Positions 37,346 through 49,445 of a DNA stretch of 64,000 nucleotides are shown piece by piece. The DNA is from an uncultured Bacteriovoracaceae bacterium. GTDB lineage: Bacteria; Bdellovibrionota; Bacteriovoracia; Bacteriovoracales; Bacteriovoracaceae. Under the pieces are notes generated by a model that was given only the letters and a program-made list of their open reading frames with translations, did no database searches and was not told where the DNA came from. Position 1 is the first letter of the stretch; the number at the start of each line of letters is the position of its first letter. The stretch covers positions 1 through 64,000 of the forward strand of contig CAKZUQ010000016.1 of assembly GCA_937923325.1 (NCBI GenBank). The letters run 5' to 3'. The position numbers and the translations under genes are program-made.

Positions 37346-37427
37346 TTAGAATCCTTTTCTATATTATTAATCCGTATACGATAAAAAATATGCTCTTTTT
37401 TGACAAGAAATAGTAGAGGAAAAAGTG

Positions 37428-38471
37428 ATGAAATACGTTGAAAATATTGTTGTCGGCAATGGGATAATGGCTAAACAATTAATATTTGAACTTAAAAAGA
37501 AGTTTTCTGACATTCTTTGTATATCTTCTGTTGACTTTGCACCTCCTTGTTCTTTGAAATCCACTGCTATTAACTGTTTAAGGGGAACTGAGTACGGCGT
37601 ATCCAAACTGGGTAATTTGATTTATGATTCTCATAGTTGTTTCGAAAAATTTTATGAAAAGTTTCATCCTGCAGGAGTTGATAAGGCTATCGAAGTTCAA
37701 ACTTGGGTAGAGGATGGATCTACTCATGCAAAATGGTTAAGGCGCTATAAAGAATATAAATTAACTAACCGTGTTCCTTTTATTAGAAATCAGCTTGCTT
37801 CACCTCTAGCATTAGTTGAAGTTGAAGCCTATGTTTTAGATACAAATATCTTATTTGATTGGTATGAAAGTCAAAATAAAAGTATTTCTCACAGTGAAAA
37901 CTTTGTGAAAAGAGTTGAAAAAATTGAAGATGGGTATCGCGTTTTTTGTATCTCTGGCGACACCTTTGAATGTAAGCGCTTATATCTATGTACTTCTTAT
38001 ATGACTAATAATTTTGTAGAATTATGCCAGAGTGTCCAGCATCGAGAACATCTAAATAAGCATAAAAATGTTCATGGTAATTATTTGTATTTAAAAATTG
38101 ACTCTAGTGTCGATTATGGACTTTGCTTTAAAGAATCTTTTTCTTTGTCGTTTAACTTTTTAAGACTGATTTATCGTAAAGAGTCTGGAGAGTTATTACT
38201 CTCTGTTAATGATTCCAATAAAGACTCTTTTTTGTTTGATCAAGCCTCTATTGAAAAAATGTATAAAGATTTTATCGATAATTTATGTCTTTTTTCAATG
38301 CCCTCTATTCATGAATGGAAAATTTATACAGGAGTTAGGTCTAAAGGTTTTCGTAGACTTCCTTTTTGTGAAGAGGTCAATAAAAACCTTTATATGATTA
38401 CAGGTCTTTATAAAAATGCTTTTAGCTTTTCTTATTTCTTCTCAAATCAAATAGTATCAGTTAAGACCTGA
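37428..38471 (+). CDS. FAD-dependent oxidoreductase-like protein (DadA/ThiO type, diverged)
   Basis: 347 residues from the ATG at 37428; the GTG three bases earlier is too close to the AGAGGA site. The N-terminus VENIVVGNGIMAKQLIFEL fits a Rossmann G-x-G-x-x-A/G FAD site with its last Gly replaced. Near the C-terminus TGVRSKGFRRLPF and then LYMITGLYKNAFSFSY copy the G-x-R-x-x-x-x-x-x-P and glycine/histidine region of DadA-like amine or amino-acid oxidases. It is convergent with scoB. Substrate unknown. The altered FAD motif leaves catalytic activity uncertain. Confidence 0.6.
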   Translation: MKYVENIVVGNGIMAKQLIFELKKKFSDILCISSVDFAPPCSLKSTAINCLRGTEYGVSKLGNLIYDSHSCFEKFYEKFHPAGVDKAIEVQTWVEDGSTHAKWLRRYKEYKLTNRVPFIRNQLASPLALVEVEAYVLDTNILFDWYESQNKSISHSENFVKRVEKIEDGYRVFCISGDTFECKRLYLCTSYMTNNFVELCQSVQHREHLNKHKNVHGNYLYLKIDSSVDYGLCFKESFSLSFNFLRLIYRKESGELLLSVNDSNKDSFLFDQASIEKMYKDFIDNLCLFSMPSIHEWKIYTGVRSKGFRRLPFCEEVNKNLYMITGLYKNAFSFSYFFSNQIVSVKT

Positions 38472-39938: not shown

Positions 39939-40688
39939 ATGGACACTTATATCTTTAGTACATATTTTTTACTTACTCTAAGTGTAGTGCTTATTATTAT
40001 TGTTTTTTACCTTCTTTTAAAAAGAAAAGTTAACGATGATATTGTTGTTGATACGAAGTTAATAAATGATGTTTTACAGTTACTGGTCAATTTCAAACTT
40101 AAAAATGATAAATATTCAAAAATTGTTTCTGATTACAGGCATCATGTTAATGGCGCTCTTCAAATAATAAACTTTGGAACTAGTATGCTTTCTCGAGAGT
40201 TAAGAAGCATTGAAAATAAGCATATTGAGGACTCTACGACCAAGATAAATAATTCTGTCAAAAAGATTATTTCTCTTTCTCGTAACCTTAAAGAAAAAGA
40301 AAAGAAAATTGGTTTGACCCAAATATCATTAAACTCTTTAATTTTGCAAAGTATAAACACTTATGGTTCTAGTAAGTTTCACAAACTCTTAAGTTATGAA
40401 GAAGATATCGTTTATTTGACTTACTCTGTGGAATTCTTACTCAGAGTTTTTTTTGCTTATTTTCTTAGTGATTTAAGTCATGGTGATTGCTCAAATGAGC
40501 CAGTCAGTATTAAATTTCATACTCAAGGTGGCTTTTTAAATGTATTTTTTATTTTTGAAAATAATGTAGACTTTAAAAACCTTAGGGATCTTTATGATAC
40601 ATATTCAGAATCCTTAGTTTTGTTCAACTTTACTTTCAAAATTTCTGATAAAAATAATACAGTAAGCATTATTATAGAAAATGTCTGA
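39939..40688 (+). CDS. Membrane protein with a degenerate histidine-kinase-like core
   Basis: 249 residues from ATG 39939; an upstream frame start at 39888 would place charged sequence before the membrane helix. One N-terminal membrane span (YFLLTLSVVLIIIVFYLLL) is followed by a cytosolic helical region with VSDYRHHVNGALQIINFG. His68-His69 sit where the H-box of a DHp domain would be, and a second helix follows. The C-terminal part has SVEFLLRVFFAYFLSDLSHG, faintly like an N-box helix, and beta-rich KFHTQGGFLNVFFIFENN, but no G-boxes. It looks like a kinase that has lost ATP binding, or a convergent scaffold. It is just upstream of the SelO-like gene on the same strand. Confidence 0.5.
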   Translation: MDTYIFSTYFLLTLSVVLIIIVFYLLLKRKVNDDIVVDTKLINDVLQLLVNFKLKNDKYSKIVSDYRHHVNGALQIINFGTSMLSRELRSIENKHIEDSTTKINNSVKKIISLSRNLKEKEKKIGLTQISLNSLILQSINTYGSSKFHKLLSYEEDIVYLTYSVEFLLRVFFAYFLSDLSHGDCSNEPVSIKFHTQGGFLNVFFIFENNVDFKNLRDLYDTYSESLVLFNFTFKISDKNNTVSIIIENV

Positions 40689-40759
40689 TCTTATGACTTG
40701 GGAGTTTCTTTTTATTAGCAACCTTTGTAAATATAGTTTTTATTTGTATAATCATTCAT

Positions 40760-42556
40760 ATGTCTGAATCTAAAAAAAATGAATATATTAACTTTGATAA
40801 GTTAGATGGATCCCATCCCTTTAAAGATGTTTGTTCGGATGGTTTTATCGATTATGAAGTCAGAAGAAGATCTAATGCAAAAATTAAGTATTTTAACTTT
40901 GCTCTGGCAAAAGAAATGGGACTCATCTCCGATGATCATTTATGTTGTTTAAATCAAAAGTTAGAAGAAAAGATTATATCAACTTTCTCTATTTTAATTA
41001 TTAACGAATTTGATATTGAAAATAACAAAAGCTACCCAAAAACGAAACTTCACAATAAAAGATTTATGGCAACTCGTTACTTGCAACTTCAACACACAGA
41101 CAAGCTTGGCTTAAACTCTGGAGATGGTCGCAGTATTTGGAATGGACAACTTAAATCTAAAAAAGGATTTTGGGATATTACAAGTTGTGGTACGGGTGGA
41201 ACTCGTTTGAGTCCTGCAACATCTAAATATAATAAATTCTTTGAAAGTGGTGATCCCTCAATTTCATATGGTTGCGGTTTTGCTGAGGTCGATGAAGGAG
41301 TTGCTCAAGCTTTATTTAGTGAGTTTTTTTACAAAAATAAAATACGAACAGAGCGAACTCTAGCTGTGCTTGAGTTTGAGAGTGGCTATGCTATTAACGT
41401 TAGAGCTCATAAAAGCTTACTTCGACCTAGTCATTTCTTTTTGCATCTAAAGCAATCCAATTATCAATCTTTAAAAGGACTTGTTGACTATTATATTGAA
41501 TCTCAAAAATCCTTAAAAGATTGGATTGATTGTCCAGTTGACTCTAAGAAGTATACGTATTTCTTAAAAAAGGTAACTGTTGACTTTGCTAAAATGGCAT
41601 CAATATTTGAGAGTGAATATATTTTTTGCTGGTTAGATTGGGATGGTGATAATATATTAATGGATGGCTCTATTATAGATTATGGTTCTATAAGGCAGTT
41701 TGGGATGTTTCACTCTGAGTATCGTTATGATGATGTCGATCGTTTTTCTACTACGATTCTTGAACAAAGAGATAAAGCTAAGTATATTGTCCAGTGCTTT
41801 ATCCAGCTTGTTGATTTTATAAAAAACAAGGAAAAGAGAAACTTAAAGACTTTTAAAGAAGATAAATTTCTTAAGTTATTTGATACTGAGTTTGAAAATC
41901 AAAAAAATAGGAATTTATTGCTCAAGCTTGGGCTTGATGAAAAAACAAGTATTATTCTTCTGGAGCAGAAGTCTCGTCTTGTAAAAGACTTTAGTAAAAT
42001 ATTTAATTATTTCGAAAGAGCCAAGTCTAAAAAAGGCTTAGTTAAGGTATCTGATGGTATATCTTGGAATGCAATATTCTGTATGAGAGATATTTTAAGA
42101 GAGCTTCCAAAGTTGATAATTGCCACTAAAAGTAAGGTTTCCGATTCAGACTTTATTAATATTTTGAAAAGTAATTATGCTGAAGAAGAAGATGTTGAAA
42201 TCTCTTCTTACCGATCAAAGATGATTAAAGGTTTCCAAGACAAATATTGGGATATCGTGACTGAAGCATCCTTAATTAATAAACAATCATTTGATAAACA
42301 AATCTTGTTATTATCATTGAATTCTGCAAAAAGGAATAAATTTGCTAGAGTTACCGGAGATTCAATTTCAATAATTGTTGAAAAGATTCTTAAACAAAAA
42401 AATAAGATTTCGTCAGATGACTTATATTCACTAATTGATGATTTTTCAAGAATACAATGTATCTACGATTATGTTAAAGAACCATCTGAACTAAAGAATA
42501 AAGATCTTTTGATGAGCTTTTTTGATATTGTTAAAGAGTATAGAGAGGGTCTATGA
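40760..42556 (+). CDS. Divergent SelO/YdiU-like protein, cytosolic
   Basis: 598 residues, no signal peptide. The order of SelO motifs is kept: GDGRSIW (GDGRA), ITSCGTGGTRLSPAT (LKGAGKTPYSR), a 24-residue helix alignable without gaps ending in RTERTL, and VRAHKSLLRPSHF. CWLDWDGDNILMDGSIIDYG follows, with Asp297-Asn298 and Asp307, again exactly 10 residues between the two Asp. The Lys of the glycine-rich loop appears to be Cys143, and the Glu that pairs with it Gln183, so AMP transfer may be lost or altered. The C-terminal half is helical and unrecognised. It is coupled to the S51 peptidase gene by an ATGA overlap. Family membership is inferred from motifs. Confidence 0.65.
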   Translation: MSESKKNEYINFDKLDGSHPFKDVCSDGFIDYEVRRRSNAKIKYFNFALAKEMGLISDDHLCCLNQKLEEKIISTFSILIINEFDIENNKSYPKTKLHNKRFMATRYLQLQHTDKLGLNSGDGRSIWNGQLKSKKGFWDITSCGTGGTRLSPATSKYNKFFESGDPSISYGCGFAEVDEGVAQALFSEFFYKNKIRTERTLAVLEFESGYAINVRAHKSLLRPSHFFLHLKQSNYQSLKGLVDYYIESQKSLKDWIDCPVDSKKYTYFLKKVTVDFAKMASIFESEYIFCWLDWDGDNILMDGSIIDYGSIRQFGMFHSEYRYDDVDRFSTTILEQRDKAKYIVQCFIQLVDFIKNKEKRNLKTFKEDKFLKLFDTEFENQKNRNLLLKLGLDEKTSIILLEQKSRLVKDFSKIFNYFERAKSKKGLVKVSDGISWNAIFCMRDILRELPKLIIATKSKVSDSDFINILKSNYAEEEDVEISSYRSKMIKGFQDKYWDIVTEASLINKQSFDKQILLLSLNSAKRNKFARVTGDSISIIVEKILKQKNKISSDDLYSLIDDFSRIQCIYDYVKEPSELKNKDLLMSFFDIVKEYREGL

Positions 42557-43215
42557 AACTCGTTCTTTATAGTGGTGGAGATGATCTTGATAATGTAGTT
42601 TTAGATAGAAATATGATAAAACTATCTGGAAAAAAGAATCCTACAATAACATTTGTACCTTCTAGTTCCTACTTTATTGAGTCAGAGTTTATTGAGTTTG
42701 CTGCTCAGTTTCAAAAATATCGAATTAATAAACTTATTAATTTTCCTGTTGATGTTGAGTTTAGTGACGTTCTACGTAATGAAGTTTTAAAGTCTGATAT
42801 TATTTACCTTGGTGGTGGTAATACTTATTATTTTTTGAAGCACCTTCGCAAGTCTGGTATTCTTAAAAATTTAAAATCCTTTGTTCAGCGCGGAGGTATA
42901 CTTGCTGGTCTCAGTGCAGGTGCAATTATTATGAGCCAAAATATTGATATGGCCGGTATTCCTGAATTTGATCGTGATGACAATGATGAAAATTTAAAGA
43001 ACTTAACCGGACTTGGCCTTAATAAATTTGATTTTTTTCCTCACTATAAAAACTCAAAAAGATATGATAATGCATTAAAAAATCATACAAAAAAAACTGG
43101 ACGAAAAATTTATGCATCTCCTGATGGTGCAGGTATTATTGTTGATGGAGAGAGTATGACTTTTATTGGAAAGACTTTCTTATTTTTTGATGGAAAAAAA
43201 ATTATTCTCAAGTAA
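42553..43215 (+). CDS. Peptidase S51 family protein (dipeptidase E / cyanophycinase-like)
   Basis: 220 residues, the size of E. coli PepE. The catalytic serine is Ser121 in AGLSAGAIIMS, inside the nucleophile elbow G-x-S-A-G. DIIYLGGGNTYYFLKHLR is the conserved upstream glycine-rich loop, and FFPHYKNSKR corresponds to the family's H-x-x (His) region. S51 enzymes cleave N-terminal Asp dipeptides or cyanophycin dipeptides. Here it is translated from an overlap with the SelO-like gene, and an aldehyde dehydrogenase follows 19 bases later. This peptidase could act on the SelO-like protein's product or target, but that is speculation. Confidence 0.85.
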   Translation: MKLVLYSGGDDLDNVVLDRNMIKLSGKKNPTITFVPSSSYFIESEFIEFAAQFQKYRINKLINFPVDVEFSDVLRNEVLKSDIIYLGGGNTYYFLKHLRKSGILKNLKSFVQRGGILAGLSAGAIIMSQNIDMAGIPEFDRDDNDENLKNLTGLGLNKFDFFPHYKNSKRYDNALKNHTKKTGRKIYASPDGAGIIVDGESMTFIGKTFLFFDGKKIILK

Positions 43216-43234
43216 TTTAAATTAAAAGGTCTTT

Positions 43235-44602
43235 ATGCAATCAATAAACCCATTTACTAATACTCTTATTTCTAGTTATACAGAATTTTCAAAGGAGAAG
43301 GTTTCATCTATCATTGAAGAATCTGATGATTTTTATCCAACTTGGCGATCTACAAGTTTCGCGAAACGGTCTAAGCTATTTTTGCGTCTTGCTGACGTTC
43401 TTTTGGAAAATAAGCTTGAGTATGCTCAAATTATAACTAAAGAAGTCGGTAAGCCTATTTCTCAAAGTCTTCAAGAAATCGAAAAGTGTTCGCTCGTTTG
43501 TCGTTATTACGCTAAAAACTCAGAGAGCTTTCTTAAGGATAAAGTTGTTCCTACTGATTATGTTTTAAGTAAGATTGTTTATCGGCCCTTAGGTGTTATT
43601 TTAGGAATTATGCCTTGGAATTTCCCATTTTGGCAGGTTTTCAGATTTGCTGTTCCTACTTTAATGGCTGGTAACACTGTAATACTTAAACATGCTAGTA
43701 ATGTATCAGGCTGCTCTTTAGTTATTGATGATGCTTTTAAAAGTGCTGGGTTTCATAAATCAGCTTTTAGTTCTCTTCTTACCTCCGGTACATCTGTAAA
43801 GAATGTAATTCAAGATGATAGGATTAAAGGTGTTTCCTTCACAGGTAGTACGGATGTTGGTAGGCAAGTTGCTATATTATCGGCTCAAAACTTAAAAAAA
43901 TGTTTATTGGAGTTAGGTGGTTCTGACCCTTATATAGTCTTAGAAGATGCCGATCTTCCTTATGCTGCTAAGCTATGTGTCGAAAGTCGTTTGCAGAACA
44001 ATGGACAAAGCTGTATCGGTGCAAAAAGGTTTATTGTCGCTGACTCTGTCTATGATGATTTTCTTAAATATATTAAGCAAGAGATTAATTTTTATCTCTC
44101 ACAACCCAATGACCCTTCAAATTTAAATTGTAAATTAGGGCCTATGTCTACTGTAGATTTTAGAAATGCTCTTTTGGAGCGTGTTAGATTATGTGAGGAT
44201 ATGGGGGCAAAGGTTACTTATAGTTCGAAACCTGAATCTGGTAGTGCATATCTTTCACCAGTCATAATTGAAAATATCACAACGTTAATGCCTGCTTATA
44301 AAGAGGAGTTTTTTGGACCTGTTATTTCGCTTTTTAGGTTCACCGATTTAGATCAAGCTGTAGATATAGCAAATGATACTACTTTTGGTCTTGGTAGTGG
44401 TGTTTTTGGTAAAAACTCTGCACAACTATTAGATTTAGCAGAAAATCGTCTTAATGCAGGAGCTTCTTTTGTCAATAGTTATGTTAAGTCCAACATTGAA
44501 CTTCCTTTTGGAGGTATTAAGGAGTCCGGCATGGGAAGAGAGCTTTCAAGAGAAGGGCTTTTAGAATTTGTAAATATTAAGACCATATGCGTTGCAGAAT
44601 AG
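43235..44602 (+). CDS. NAD(P)-dependent aldehyde dehydrogenase (succinate-semialdehyde type)
   Basis: 455 residues, ALDH superfamily. Conserved blocks: MPWNFPFWQVFRFAVP, VILKHASNVSGCSL, FTGSTDVGRQVA, LLELGGSDPYIVL with general base Glu226, NNGQSCIGAKRF with nucleophile Cys260, and EEFFGPVISLFRF. The short length and FPFWQ/GSDPYIV wording are those of GabD2/Sad-type succinate-semialdehyde dehydrogenases. The substrate is not proven. It follows the S51 peptidase on the same strand with AAAAGG as ribosome binding site, making a four-gene plus-strand run. Confidence 0.9.
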   Translation: MQSINPFTNTLISSYTEFSKEKVSSIIEESDDFYPTWRSTSFAKRSKLFLRLADVLLENKLEYAQIITKEVGKPISQSLQEIEKCSLVCRYYAKNSESFLKDKVVPTDYVLSKIVYRPLGVILGIMPWNFPFWQVFRFAVPTLMAGNTVILKHASNVSGCSLVIDDAFKSAGFHKSAFSSLLTSGTSVKNVIQDDRIKGVSFTGSTDVGRQVAILSAQNLKKCLLELGGSDPYIVLEDADLPYAAKLCVESRLQNNGQSCIGAKRFIVADSVYDDFLKYIKQEINFYLSQPNDPSNLNCKLGPMSTVDFRNALLERVRLCEDMGAKVTYSSKPESGSAYLSPVIIENITTLMPAYKEEFFGPVISLFRFTDLDQAVDIANDTTFGLGSGVFGKNSAQLLDLAENRLNAGASFVNSYVKSNIELPFGGIKESGMGRELSREGLLEFVNIKTICVAE

Positions 44603-44691: not shown

Positions 44692-44768
44692 AGCGACGTA
44701 GCTCAGTTGGTTAGAGCATCGGATTCATATCCCGGGGGTCGGCAGTTCAACTCTGCCCGTCGCTACCA
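44692..44768 (+). tRNA. tRNA-Met (CAT anticodon), elongator type
   Basis: 77 bases with encoded CCA. The acceptor stem AGCGACG pairs with CGTCGCT; the D arm is GCTC/GAGC; the anticodon loop TTCATAT holds CAT at positions 34-36; the T arm is GGCAG/CTGCC with loop TTCAACT. Position 1 is paired, and the anticodon stem lacks three G-C pairs, so it is not the initiator. CAT could also be tRNA-Ile2 modified by TilS, but the body (GGATTCATA, then CGG and GGTCGGCAG) resembles elongator tRNA-Met. The closing pair at 31-39 is A-C, which is common in this type. Confidence 0.9.
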
Positions 44769-44772
44769 TTTC

Positions 44773-46056
44773 TTAGTTTAAGCCTTTTTGTTCAAAACTT
44801 CTATTAAGTACTTGTAATCCTAACCTCTTACTTTTACAGTTCTCTATACATTCATTAACTAGTGCTTTAGTTAAGTCTTCAAGAATAGTTGATTCTTCAT
44901 GAAGTTCAAAGTGAGCTTGATAAAGAATCTTGTCAAAGTTTGCTAAACTGTCTTTTTTCTTCTTTTTTCTAGATTCATTTACTTTGTTAAAGTTTAATCT
45001 CGTATTCCAAAGTAAACTTAATGTGAAGTCACTTGTTGCATTCCAAGACTGCTCAAGAGCTGGATGATAGAATGTTCTATTCTTTAATTTTTTTGTTTTG
45101 TTACTCGAAATATTTTTAATTTTTTTGTATATTTGCTTATCTTTTGTTTGTGATATCCTTGCTGCAAAATAATCTGCTACGCCTTCAATTACTGGAACAG
45201 AGTGTACTGTTTTCATTGTATCAGATAGAGCAATGTGCGAAAATTCATGATATATGATATCCGGAACTAATGCAGTATCAATAAAGTAATATTTCTCTGT
45301 AAATGGTTTATCTAGGTATTTACTAACTTCTACTAATCCATATAAACCTGCAATAACTGCTAATCTTTCGATTGATTTGTTTAAGTATGTAGTCCCAAAT
45401 GTTGGTGATGCAATTACACCTAGTCCTCCGTATAGCAACGCATTTCCTTGATAGTCAACAATTGGTTCTTTTAATAGTTTCAATCCTTGATGAACAGGAT
45501 TGTTTCCAATTGATTTAACATTCTTTCTTGTTTCAAATTTTTTCATTGGACTAAACCATATTTCTTGGCCCCAAGTCTTTTTTTCTTTTATAAATCTAGG
45601 AGTCTTTCCTTCTGGAGTTGACCATGCATTGTTGAAATTTTTCGTATGGTTTTCATGTTTGTAATGCCTTGTTTTTGAATATGAATTAGTTATATTTAAT
45701 CTGATCGTTAATTGCTCTAGATTTTTAACGTAATCATTTTCAAGTTCATTTACCCAGTAGTTTCTTGCTTGCGTTAAATGGTAATAAACATTGGCCGCTT
45801 TTTTCACAAGCTCAATATTGCCATCAAAACTTATTGGATCATTCGAAGTTCCCTGTACTACTTTAAAGAATTTTCCTTCAAATGTTTTTTCACAAAACAT
45901 ATCTTTTAGTTCTCTTGTTTGAAATGAGTAGTCTTTCTTACTTTTTACTAATACTTTAAAGTTATTTGTGCACACTTTTTGAGCAAATAAACTTGTATTC
46001 ATTATAGATAAAAATAATAACGCTTTATTAATTGATAAACGTGGCAGCATGGTCAT
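44773..46056 (-). CDS. Exported protein with HExxH zinc-metallopeptidase motif
   Basis: 427 residues with a signal peptide (ALLFLSIMNTSLFAQ, cleavage after FAQ). The motif YHEFSHIAL places H270-E271-x-x-H274, and Glu291 in IEGVADYFAAR follows 16 residues after the second His. This is a gluzincin-like arrangement of three zinc ligands. A small-residue hydrophobic helix (NALLYGGLGVIASPTFG) lies before it, and the N-terminal 200 residues and C-terminus are unrecognised. It overlaps the upstream gene by 29 bases and has its own AAGGAGA site. A periplasmic or secreted peptidase is likely; the family is not recognised. Confidence 0.72.
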   Translation of the reverse strand: MTMLPRLSINKALLFLSIMNTSLFAQKVCTNNFKVLVKSKKDYSFQTRELKDMFCEKTFEGKFFKVVQGTSNDPISFDGNIELVKKAANVYYHLTQARNYWVNELENDYVKNLEQLTIRLNITNSYSKTRHYKHENHTKNFNNAWSTPEGKTPRFIKEKKTWGQEIWFSPMKKFETRKNVKSIGNNPVHQGLKLLKEPIVDYQGNALLYGGLGVIASPTFGTTYLNKSIERLAVIAGLYGLVEVSKYLDKPFTEKYYFIDTALVPDIIYHEFSHIALSDTMKTVHSVPVIEGVADYFAARISQTKDKQIYKKIKNISSNKTKKLKNRTFYHPALEQSWNATSDFTLSLLWNTRLNFNKVNESRKKKKKDSLANFDKILYQAHFELHEESTILEDLTKALVNECIENCKSKRLGLQVLNRSFEQKGLN

Positions 46057-47458
46057 TATCTTCTCCTTTAATTGATAGCTTTTTTACTATTCCTTCTACT
46101 ATTGATAGGCCTATTGTAGCTGCCACATTAAATGGTGGAGGTACAAAGAATAAACTTAAGCCTGTGAATCTAAAAATGTAACCAGTAATTCTTTCAAATT
46201 TCGTTTTTGATGGATTCCACAAATCATCATATCGTACAACATAGTTAATATCTTCTATTGTTACATAACCAGTTTCGAATGCTGCCATTACAACTTCTTC
46301 GTAAAAAATTTTTTTCTCGATGAAAGTACTCATCATTTGAAGATCATGTATGTCTTTTCTCATTCTTTTTCTTGCTAAATTGTATTGACTTTGAGTATCT
46401 AGTTCAATTTTTTCAACATAGTTTTCTTTTGTTCCATCAGCATTATTTATAACAAAACTTTGAGTTATGACTGGTGCATTTGCTGTTACGTCCGGGTCAA
46501 CTCCCATTCTCCATGATGCCTTTTGTAAAACTTGGGCCATAAGTATAATTTGAGTTACATCATACTTTTGATATAGCTTGGTTCTTTGTGTTAACTTTTT
46601 GTACCACCTTAATTTATTTGTCGAAAACTCATCTTCTTCTAAGTTGATGTCTTCAACATTATAATTAGAATTTCTTGTTTTCATTTTATTTTTAGCACCA
46701 AATATTATGTCATAATAATCTCTTAGTCTGAGCTTTCTCTTTGTAATAAATGATTTTTTTCTTAAGTACTCAATCGATTGAAATGTTGTCTTTGTTATTA
46801 GTTTCTTCTTTAAAGCATCCAGATTAGTTACTTTAAGAGCTTTAAGTCTTTCCTTGTTATTTATTTTTTTATTTTTTGGTATTTTTACTGTGAATTTCAA
46901 TATGCTGAATCTTGAATATAAACATTGTATATCCTCTTCTGCATCTGTGAAGTTTTGATAAAGTTCTGTTGTTTTATTTGACTGTAAAACTTCTCTTGCG
47001 TATTTATTATTGAGGCCTCTTAACTTTATTTTTTTATTGGGGTTCAGAAGCTTTAAGGCATGATAATCATCATTTAAGTTTAAAGATGTATCAAGGTATA
47101 TGTCATCAATAAAATTTGATATTCTTAGTTGTTTTAAGTAATTATCGATACTCAACTTTGAGTTATCCAAGCTATAACTTTCTAAGTTTTCTTTAAATAA
47201 AGAAATTAAATTCAATTCGCATTTAGTTTTATTTCTTTCGATAAGCTTTCTTGTTGCCTGGAAAAAAGCATCTTTGTATTTACTGACAAGTTCAGTGTCT
47301 ATAATAATGTTTTTCTTTTCTTTTTTGCTAATAATTCTCGATATGACTTCTTTGTCATTTTTTAAAAGATCTAGATCTTTTTCGCTTTTATAGAATGTAC
47401 TCGCATGAGTTGTAAGGGTTCCAATTAATAGAATTGTAGTTATGTATATATGTTTCAT
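46028..47458 (-). CDS. Exported protein of unknown function, partner of the metallopeptidase gene
   Basis: 476 residues. The signal peptide is MKHIYITTILLIGTLTTHAS. The mature region is Lys-, Asn- and Leu-rich and mostly helical. Near the C-terminus a hydrophobic segment (YIFRFTGLSLFFVPPPFNVAATIGLSIVEGIV, listed here by start and end only as residues about 425-458) could insert in a membrane. No known family or motif is seen. It shares 29 bases with the following metallopeptidase gene, so the two are translated together and probably work together. Confidence 0.6.
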   Translation of the reverse strand: MKHIYITTILLIGTLTTHASTFYKSEKDLDLLKNDKEVISRIISKKEKKNIIIDTELVSKYKDAFFQATRKLIERNKTKCELNLISLFKENLESYSLDNSKLSIDNYLKQLRISNFIDDIYLDTSLNLNDDYHALKLLNPNKKIKLRGLNNKYAREVLQSNKTTELYQNFTDAEEDIQCLYSRFSILKFTVKIPKNKKINNKERLKALKVTNLDALKKKLITKTTFQSIEYLRKKSFITKRKLRLRDYYDIIFGAKNKMKTRNSNYNVEDINLEEDEFSTNKLRWYKKLTQRTKLYQKYDVTQIILMAQVLQKASWRMGVDPDVTANAPVITQSFVINNADGTKENYVEKIELDTQSQYNLARKRMRKDIHDLQMMSTFIEKKIFYEEVVMAAFETGYVTIEDINYVVRYDDLWNPSKTKFERITGYIFRFTGLSLFFVPPPFNVAATIGLSIVEGIVKKLSIKGEDNDHAATFIN

Positions 47459-48032
47459 TCTTGAGTAGTTGCATGTCGTGTGCCATTTAATTTATCATAA
47501 TTTCAAGCATTTAAAACTTCATGCTAATCATCAAGTGTTGATTTATTGAGGAAGTGACAATAGTTTCTACAAAATATACCTGTTTAGTTTTTATTTAGTA
47601 TCTAAAATCGTATTTACAAATTCTATTCTAAGTTATGTGTAAAGTTGTCTTATTAATAGTTAATATATTCTGTTGAGTGATTTATAGAGTTTTCAATTTC
47701 AGAGCGCTATTTCTATATAGTAGTTCTATAATAATTAGTTTTTAATAGATTTAATGCTTTTTTTTGTATGAAGTGGCGCAAAAAAAAAATGAATAGCTGT
47801 TTATATTTTAATTGGAATTAAATCGACGCTAAATAGAGAAAAACATGTAAAATGTTAATACAGTTTTAATAATCTAAGTATCTAAAATATTGACAAAATT
47901 TAAAAATAAAAAAATATATTTCATCAAATATAGACACTTTGCGTTGAAGTCGTTTGTGCTTCGTGTTACTCTTGATTGAATTAGTATATTTTATTGTATT
48001 TTTATTTATATAAAAACAAACAAAGGAAAAAA
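47459..48032. other. Non-coding divergent region before the collagen-like gene
   Basis: 574 bases of very A+T-rich DNA between a minus-strand gene start and a plus-strand gene start. No open frame of interest and no RNA gene were found. It holds a candidate promoter at 47890 and the collagen-like gene's Shine-Dalgarno AAAGGAAAA just before 48033. The length suggests room for regulatory sites that I cannot identify. Confidence 0.6.
47890..47920 (+). promoter_or_regulatory. Candidate promoter of the collagen-like gene
   Basis: TTGACA at 47890-47895 and TATATT at 47915-47920 with a 19-base spacer, which is longer than ideal. The leader to the start would be about 105 bases. Confidence 0.35.
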
Positions 48033-49445
48033 ATGAACTTCAAACCTATTAGTAAAGCTGTATTTACAGCAGTTTCATTTGCTCTTTTATCTAACTCTAC
48101 AGCGTTTGCATATTCAAACACTAGAGCAATGATTGAAGAGTCTTATGTTAAGACACAAAAATCAGTAAATCTTCAAGAGATTAATGATGTTCTGGATGAG
48201 TACCAGTATTACATGGATGGCTGGGATGGCCGTGATATTGGGTATAAGCAAGAGAATGAAACACGTTTGAGAAATGGTTTAAGAGCTCTTTTGAGTACTG
48301 GAACTTCAATAGCAGATGTTCAGACAGTTATGGAGTCAAGAATTTTAAACCCACAAAAGAGAGAAGACTATAGAAGATTAGTCAGTTCTTTGAAAGTTCA
48401 AAATTTATCTGAGGAGAGGATTGCACAGGTTACAATGAACTTTATGGAAGATACTGATCAGACAGGAGCTGCCTTTGAATCAAAAAGTTCTAAAACTACT
48501 TTTACAACAATTGCTATTATAGTTGGTGTTGCATTAGTGGCAACGGTTACTGTTTTAATGATTATAGAATTAAGAAAATTGAAGAATGGTGAATATGACG
48601 GACGAGATGGTGTTGACGGACGCGATGGTGTTGACGGTAGAGATGGTAAAGACGGTAGAGATGGTATTGATGGTAAAGATGGTATTGACGGTAAAGACGG
48701 AATTGACGGTAAAGACGGAATTGACGGAATTGACGGTAAAGACGGAATTGACGGAGTTGACGGAAAAGATGGTATAGACGGAGTTGACGGAGCCGATGGT
48801 AAAGACGGAATCGACGGAGTTGACGGAGTTGACGGAAAAGATGGTATAGACGGAGTTGACGGAGCCGATGGTAAAGACGGAATCGACGGAGCTGACGGAA
48901 AAGATGGTATAGACGGAGTTGACGGAGCTGATGGTAAAGACGGAATCGACGGAGTTGACGGTAAGGACGGAATCGACGGAGCTGACGGAGCCGATGGTAA
49001 AGACGGAATCGACGGAGCTGACGGAGCTGATGGTAAAGACGGAATCGACGGAGTTGACGGAGTTGACGGAAAAGATGGAGCTGACGGAAAAGACGGAGCT
49101 GACGGAAAAGATGGTCTAAACGGTGAAAATGGTATAGACGGAGTTGACGGAAAAGATGGTCTAAAGGGTGATAAAGGTCACGATGGTCAGCGCGGTGAAA
49201 AAGGTGAGAAAGGTGACAAGGGTGATAAAGGTCACAATGGTCAGCGCGGTGAAAAAGGTGAGAAAGGTGACAAAGGTGATAAAGGTCACGATGGTCAGCG
49301 CGGTGAAAGAGGATTTAGAGGTTATAAAGGTCATACTGGTATGAAAGGAGCCAAGGGTGATAAAGGTGATAAAGGTGATAAAGGTGATAGAGGTGAAGCT
49401 GGTATGAATGGATGCCATTGGAACCAAAGGCACTGTAATGACTAG
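48033..49445 (+). CDS. Collagen-like protein with 90 proline-free Gly-X-Y triplets
   Basis: 470 residues from the ATG at 48033; the frame can be extended upstream only to TTG 47994, which has no good site. Order of parts: signal peptide (VFTAVSFALLSNSTAFA), a helical domain of about 130 residues, and a strongly hydrophobic helix near 158-180 followed by ELRKLKNG. The Gly-X-Y region spans residues 190-459, 90 triplets without a break. The first about 60 triplets are G-x-D (GID, GVD, GAD, GKD), the last about 30 mainly GEK, GDK, GQR. The end, GMNGCHWNQRHCND, has two Cys that may crosslink chains. No proline occurs in the triplets. Its own terminator follows. A surface stalk or adhesin is the likeliest role. 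Confidence 0.85.
   Translation: MNFKPISKAVFTAVSFALLSNSTAFAYSNTRAMIEESYVKTQKSVNLQEINDVLDEYQYYMDGWDGRDIGYKQENETRLRNGLRALLSTGTSIADVQTVMESRILNPQKREDYRRLVSSLKVQNLSEERIAQVTMNFMEDTDQTGAAFESKSSKTTFTTIAIIVGVALVATVTVLMIIELRKLKNGEYDGRDGVDGRDGVDGRDGKDGRDGIDGKDGIDGKDGIDGKDGIDGIDGKDGIDGVDGKDGIDGVDGADGKDGIDGVDGVDGKDGIDGVDGADGKDGIDGADGKDGIDGVDGADGKDGIDGVDGKDGIDGADGADGKDGIDGADGADGKDGIDGVDGVDGKDGADGKDGADGKDGLNGENGIDGVDGKDGLKGDKGHDGQRGEKGEKGDKGDKGHNGQRGEKGEKGDKGDKGHDGQRGERGFRGYKGHTGMKGAKGDKGDKGDKGDRGEAGMNGCHWNQRHCND
48600..49409 (+). repeat. Internal collagen-type repeat DNA, including 54-bp tandem units
   Basis: A period-9 repeat runs across 810 bases. In the first part, 36-bp and 27-bp blocks of GGA-x-x-GAC type recur irregularly. 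At 49176-49309 a 54-bp unit starting GGTCACGATGGTCAGCGC is present at 49176, 49230 and (partly) 49284. Near-identical copies make length change by slippage or recombination likely. Confidence 0.9.

Follow-up and report, generated by a model that had tools for sequence, protein, structure and literature searches.

A divergent SelO-fold protein family with an S51 peptidase partner: a candidate two-enzyme module in Bdellovibrionota

Introduction

SelO is a kinase-fold protein capable of AMP transfer, and S51 enzymes act on Asp-X amides. Here we describe adjoining genes for a SelO-like protein and an S51 peptidase in the DNA of an uncultured Bacteriovoracaceae bacterium (assembly GCA_937923325.1, contig CAKZUQ010000016.1, positions 1 to 64,000 of the forward strand; "the window" hereafter means this whole stretch of 64,000 nucleotides).

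In SelO, according to the available part of one study (PMC8097203), the gamma-phosphate is held by Lys113 and Glu136 with the help of Arg176 and Arg183, and the metal by Asp262 and Asn253. In the available part of another (PMC3281104), the lysine of the SelO fold is described as almost invariant, SelO has an HGV motif in place of the HRD Asp, and a distant SelO branch, MchC/MceJ, modifies a peptide together with a partner in microcin maturation; that part of its SELO neighbourhood survey does not have S51 among the enriched genes. On the hydrolase side, MccG (S51 clade V) cleaves processed microcin C-like isoaspartyl-nucleotides (PMC9239234, available in part), and a report from 2025 describes a deAMPylase of the RNase Z kind (PMC12663964, available in part). 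The partners and erasers of SelO are a live question. Searches of the open-licence PMC literature revealed no SelO-fold enzyme with a peptidase as its partner. They gave nothing that joins SelO with cyanophycinase, SelO with Bacteriovorax, YdiU with Bdellovibrio, or SelO with K113 and E136, and nothing that joins an S51 peptidase with a pseudokinase, or AMPylation and aspartyl with peptidase E.

We propose, with a probability of about 0.4, that the SelO-like and S51 proteins constitute a conserved, translationally coupled module, in which an ATP-dependent SelO-fold transferase would act together with a hydrolase of an Asp-linked product. The directly observed part of this reading consists of the pairing, the folds and the active-site residues that are kept or lost. 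What is new is a SelO-fold family that is divergent and has S51 as its partner, the SelO fold and S51 themselves being known kinds; with its altered catalytic residues and an adjoining hydrolase in most genomes of one class, it offers a compact, testable two-protein system, and it is relevant to the question of how much this fold can shift without its almost invariant lysine.

Conservation and distribution of the gene pair

The pair occupies the following positions in the window:

40760..42556, plus strand: SelO-like protein of 598 amino acids, of a divergent SelO-fold family, with C143 at the Lys113 position and R215/R222, D293, N298 and D307 present
42553..43215, plus strand: S51 peptidase of 220 amino acids, with a PepE-like fold and the triad S121-H164-D191
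42553..42556, plus strand: ATGA stop/start overlap of the two genes, read as translational coupling

A scan of genome contigs gave 279 confirmed SelO-like loci, the best 80 of which were taken as related loci, a sample that leans to close relatives. The S51 gene adjoins the SelO-like gene in 70 of the 80, one of the ten misses (L064) being cut by a contig end, and in L073 it lies upstream, not downstream, of the SelO-like gene. The junction carries a stop/start overlap of the form NTGA (N = A, G or T) in 59 of 70 pairs, window included. The outer neighbours vary, the commonest upstream family being found in 14 of 64 loci and the commonest downstream family in 17 of 66. Since the pair is kept side by side while its other neighbours change, the two proteins probably form a two-enzyme system.

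The class that holds Bacteriovorax sp. BSW11_IV (locus L007, genome G010) was represented by 129 genomes, and among these the SelO-like gene is present in 104, an S51 gene of the paired type (E below about 1e-22) in 98, and the two are adjacent in 97; none of the 129 has the paired-type S51 without the SelO-like gene. Excluded before this count were the weak SelO rows, namely G073, canonical-SelO matches (G049, G015, G079, G023, G026 and G012) and second fragments (G052, G122 and G058), as well as S51 rows weaker than about 1e-22. In three of the seven unpaired genomes (G030, G037 and G116) the SelO-like gene ends at or near a contig end, and G030 has an S51 of 37-39% on a separate contig; G024 has an extra stand-alone S51 copy. 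The initial annotation had described a cluster of four genes, had held the gene coupling to be real and had looked to conserved SelO-like/S51 pairs in relatives as support for a system: these counts bear out the pair, well beyond one genome, and the comparisons given further below do not bear out the cluster of four. At one locus (L095:1008-3029) a single open reading frame (ORF) of 673 amino acids joins SelO-like residues 9-501 to S51 residues 110-219, both incomplete, through a deletion or an assembly fault.

Because 83 of the 104 class genomes with a SelO-like gene also score 60 bits or more against PF02696 at another place, the SelO-like family is mostly an addition to canonical SelO and not its replacement. 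The SelO-like proteins of L086 (G049) and L096 (G073) have an N-terminal hydrophobic, signal-like segment, and that of L086 retains the Lys; they are possibly exported members of a further SelO branch in the class.

Across 368 genomes of the phylum Bdellovibrionota, the SelO-like gene was found in 208 (E<=1e-30) and the S51 gene in 119 (E<=1e-20), with both in 116, SelO-like only in 92, S51 only in three and neither in 157, a co-occurrence with a Fisher P of 3e-33 that is uncorrected for shared ancestry. Outside the class, S51 is present in 21 genomes; among these, the two genes are adjacent in five (co-directional in G277, G278 and G374, head-to-head in G317 and G336), 2.5 kb apart and divergent in G337, and on separate contigs in G254, G266, G311 and G312; for G232, G233, G247, G271 and G334 the location of the SelO-like gene is unlisted. 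Thus the pair has come close to fixation in one class, and beyond it the association is looser.

In a tree made by a quick method, the five nearest neighbours of the window SelO-like protein are labelled Bdellovibrionota, which makes that phylum the most likely origin of the window, and 13 sequences from solo copies of the gene fall on one side of a branch with a modest SH-aLRT of 82, several end branches being long. In six of eight inspected phylum genomes (L126-L129, L131 and L133) the solo SelO-like gene has a TTL-like ATP-grasp gene upstream of it; three of the six proteins were scanned against Pfam, where PF03133 was matched above cut-off by that of L133 and just under it by that of L126, with no match for L129. 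This proximity is weak evidence, because other neighbours there are conserved too. Unlinked paired-type S51 copies in L135, L137 and L139 have, no more than about 3 kb away, an ORF that by eye resembles leucyl/phenylalanyl-tRNA-protein transferase.

Active site of the SelO-like protein

The window protein has no Pfam match and reaches 43.1 bits against the NCBIfam model NF000658 (YdiU), for which the cut-off is 431; of 37 aligned SelO-like members, five matched PF02696 (E<=0.1) and 35 matched NF000658 (E<=0.01). The SelO fold is present over most of its length (PDB 6EAC, 6K20 and 6LNA), and residue equivalents were mapped via 6EAC and hhalign. The equivalents of Arg176, Arg183, Asn253 and Asp262, namely R215, R222, N298 and D307, are invariant, each in 85 of 85 sequences. 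The Lys113 column of the same sequences holds Cys in 78, Arg in two, Ser in two and Gly, Val and Ala in one each, never Lys; eight further phylum sequences have Arg (seven) or Ser (one), so that the lysine is replaced in 93 of 93 overall. The Glu136 column, on alpha-C, is occupied by Thr (54), Ala (15), Ser (14) or Gln (2), and about one helix turn away stands an acidic residue, at position 179 (Glu 76, Asp 9). D293 aligns with the V of the SelO HGV motif in an ungapped hhalign stretch; its column is Asp in 81, Glu in three and Ala in one of the 85, and WLDWDGDN is found in eight of the eight further sequences. The 13 solo copies likewise keep the Arg, Asn and Asp residues (13/13), and 12 of 13 have an acidic residue at the HRD position. 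As judged from these alignments, the family lacks half of the residues usual in kinases and has the other half, which SelO itself is without.

A migration of the lysine as in WNK kinases was considered and rejected: between residues 95 and 299 no lysine except K231 is kept in at least 80 of the 85 sequences (the K231 column has 82 Lys and three Arg; K115 is kept in 74). As to a mobile origin, the SelO-like protein had no match among phages and plasmids at E<=1e-5, and its one PHROGs match, a weak one at 33 bits, was to phrog_24437, a family whose function is unknown.

The S51 peptidase

The window peptidase matches Pfam PF03575 above cut-off, has the S51 fold and folds like PepE. Its triad of S121, H164 and D191 is invariant in 35 of 35 sequences, the third residue being assigned from the sequence alignment, and a FPxFDxDEN stretch is conserved in paired S51 proteins. 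The scores show a gap: seven matches at 327-373 bits all come from copies that adjoin a SelO-like gene (L109 itself being cut by a contig end), and the remaining 12 lie at 17-109 bits. The PADLOC defence scan gave nothing credible, its best score being 11.6 bits (E 0.03), for the S51 protein. The S51 gene tree, in which bootstrap support is unsettled, long branches meet, the paired label does not form one group and some rows marked "no group" actually adjoin a SelO-like gene, was not used for any claim.

Proposed function and alternative explanations

The SelO-like protein would bind nucleotide in the manner of SelO, with the two Arg on the phosphates and Asn and Asp on the metal. With the Lys/Glu pair lost and an Asp at the HRD position, it would transfer AMP or phosphate, with a protein, a peptide or an amino acid as the target; the S51 enzyme, a Ser-His-Asp hydrolase, would then cut an aspartyl amide, Asp-X or isoAsp-X, that the transfer had created or uncovered, serving as eraser, trimmer or detoxifier. 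That Arg, Asn and Asp are retained speaks for chemistry that depends on a nucleotide, and the D293 column speaks for a base. The MccG and MchC/MceJ precedents make a writer/hydrolase pair on an Asp-linked product reasonable, and the hypothesis that a small peptide or amino-acid polymer is modified and trimmed, as the initial annotation had it, is compatible with these precedents as well as with the fold and the triad.

Several observations weigh against this proposal. Neither protein has a known activity, and without its Lys/Glu pair the SelO-like protein could be a pseudoenzyme that does not catalyse. Within the class, the SelO-like gene is alone in the inspected flanks of G068, G069, G070 and G081. 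Across the phylum, 92 of the 208 genomes with the SelO-like gene carry no paired-type S51, from which it follows that the SelO-like protein can work alone, and nine of nine searched genomes outside Bdellovibrionota with the SelO-like gene (loci labelled Scalindua, Nitrospirae or Gammaproteobacteria, one of the last being a Thiogranum; L073, which has both genes, is outside this set) gave no S51 match at E<=0.001. Conversely, there are other Bdellovibrionota in which the paired-type S51 stands apart from any SelO-like gene, its inspected flanks in G236, G272 and G275 being without one, and G267, G270 and G359 carry it without a SelO-like match anywhere (E<=1e-30).

The SelO-like protein could instead be a pseudoenzyme that senses nucleotide and does no transfer chemistry; bound to the S51 peptidase, it would regulate that enzyme or be regulated by it. 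The replacement of the lysine in every sequence and of the alpha-C Glu in all 85 fit such a protein, and the coupling by stop/start overlap fits a complex; however, the invariance of the metal Asn and Asp and of both phosphate Arg, together with an acidic residue at the HRD-Asp position in 84 of 85 sequences, looks like selection on catalysis, and the solo copies largely keep these same features. We regard this explanation as unlikely, if a serious one.

Co-expression alone is another explanation, which we think just as unlikely, though worth keeping in mind: a stress regulator of the SelO type would be read from one transcript together with an aspartyl dipeptidase of general action, without a common substrate. 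The PepE-like fold of the S51 protein fits it, as do the many genomes outside the class that have the SelO-like gene without the paired-type S51, and the S51 copies that stand alone in other Bdellovibrionota; but adjacency is preserved though both flanks change, most pairs have the start/stop overlap, and rearrangements leave the two genes close together.

A more specific form of the two-enzyme proposal is a writer/eraser pair of a new kind, in which the SelO-fold enzyme, without a VAIK-type lysine and with an HRD-type Asp, would form an aspartyl adduct, for example an aspartyl-nucleotide, on a protein or peptide, for the S51 enzyme to remove. We hold this version to be rather doubtful; if true, it would be the first peptidase partner of a SelO-fold enzyme within the open-licence literature searched.

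Neighbouring genes and transcription signals

The other features around the pair are:

39939..40688, plus strand: orphan ORF (HK-like) of 249 amino acids, with an N-terminal membrane segment apparent by eye
40725..40752, plus strand: promoter-like TTGTAA-16-TATAAT, a consensus match alone, ending seven bases before the SelO-like ATG
43235..44602, plus strand: aldehyde dehydrogenase (ALDH), succinate-semialdehyde-dehydrogenase-like, 19 nt after the S51 gene
44692-44768: tRNA-Met, downstream of the ALDH gene

The four plus-strand ORFs, the ATGA overlap and the 19-base gap between the S51 and ALDH genes are all present as the initial annotation described them. The ALDH gene is adjacent to the pair in none of the 80 related loci (tblastn E<=1e-4), even though in 65 of the 68 loci where S51 lies downstream the sequence ran on beyond it for 1400 nt or more, room to reveal an ALDH; matches occur in three of the 80, none adjacent, the nearest (L071) lying beyond two opposite-strand genes. 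The HK-like ORF was found in none of the 80 at the same threshold, as was the case for scoAB, tex, the ORF at 37425 and the two genes past the tRNA. It has no match in Pfam, PADLOC or PHROGs, a single NCBIfam match below cut-off and no relative by protein search; compared with a set of 12 histidine-phosphotransferase-like neighbours it gave E 0.15 and 0.9 bits, and it remains an orphan. By these comparisons the ALDH gene and the upstream ORF are local neighbours outside the conserved unit. A four-gene metabolic operon ending in aldehyde oxidation, for which the short same-strand S51-ALDH gap without a terminator-like site speaks in the window, is therefore highly improbable given that the ALDH gene is never adjacent and the HK-like ORF never found in the related loci, and aldehyde oxidation as a later step, part of the original suggestion, has no comparative support. 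In the window the ALDH gene is perhaps co-transcribed with the pair.

The promoter scan of the region gave 28 sites against 23.8 (sd 5.3) in shuffles, which is background level, as was the terminator scan, with one background-level terminator-like site inside the S51 gene (43113-43131). The TATAAT at 40747-40752 is suggestive only of a possible leaderless start of the SelO-like gene. By eye and without a background estimate, TATAAT stands 7-12 bases before a possible start codon in four of 24 listed relatives (L005, L008, L020 and L036), and Shine-Dalgarno-like sequences, also seen by eye, precede the SelO-like start in other listed relatives.

Farther out, the ORF at 37425-38471 (plus strand, 348 amino acids) looks by eye like an FAD oxidoreductase but matches nothing in Pfam or NCBIfam at E<=0.1. 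The ORF at 47994-49445 (plus strand, TTG start) has a long collagen-like GXX repeat of GKDGIDG units, with two secreted-looking opposite-strand proteins alongside. A secreted-looking protein at 44773-46056 (minus strand), overlapping the ORF 46028-47458, carries a HEFSH motif that by eye resembles those of zinc peptidases, and its top Pfam match is LcrV, under cut-off (20 bits vs 25).

Comparison with known systems

The SelO-like family shares with SelO/YdiU (PF02696) a common fold over most of its length, the GDGR loop and the equivalents of R176/R183, N253 and D262. Its window member falls under the Pfam and NCBIfam cut-offs. Unlike SelO/YdiU, the family has mostly Cys or Arg in the Lys113 column and Thr, Ala, Ser or Gln in that of Glu136, shows Asp at the HRD position in contrast to the HGV of SelO, and has an S51 partner gene.

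The paired S51 differs from the PepE aspartyl dipeptidase (PDB 1FY2 and 6A4R) in its third triad residue, which is Asp in the former and Glu in the latter, and it scores 45.6 bits against the PepE model NF003642 (cut-off 156). Against the cyanophycinase CphB model TIGR02069 it scores 39.6 bits (cut-off 126.6), cyanophycin synthesis not having been looked for. It resembles MccG, an S51 enzyme with a Ser-His-Asp triad, a likeness taken from the available part of the published description in which the Asp third residue alone agrees. MchC/MceJ, likened on the same kind of partial description, is a distant branch of the SelO fold that has a partner gene of its own, as the SelO-like protein has its S51; the partner of MchC/MceJ is however an HlyC-like acyltransferase, with the genes in a microcin cluster, whereas that of the SelO-like protein is an S51 peptidase.

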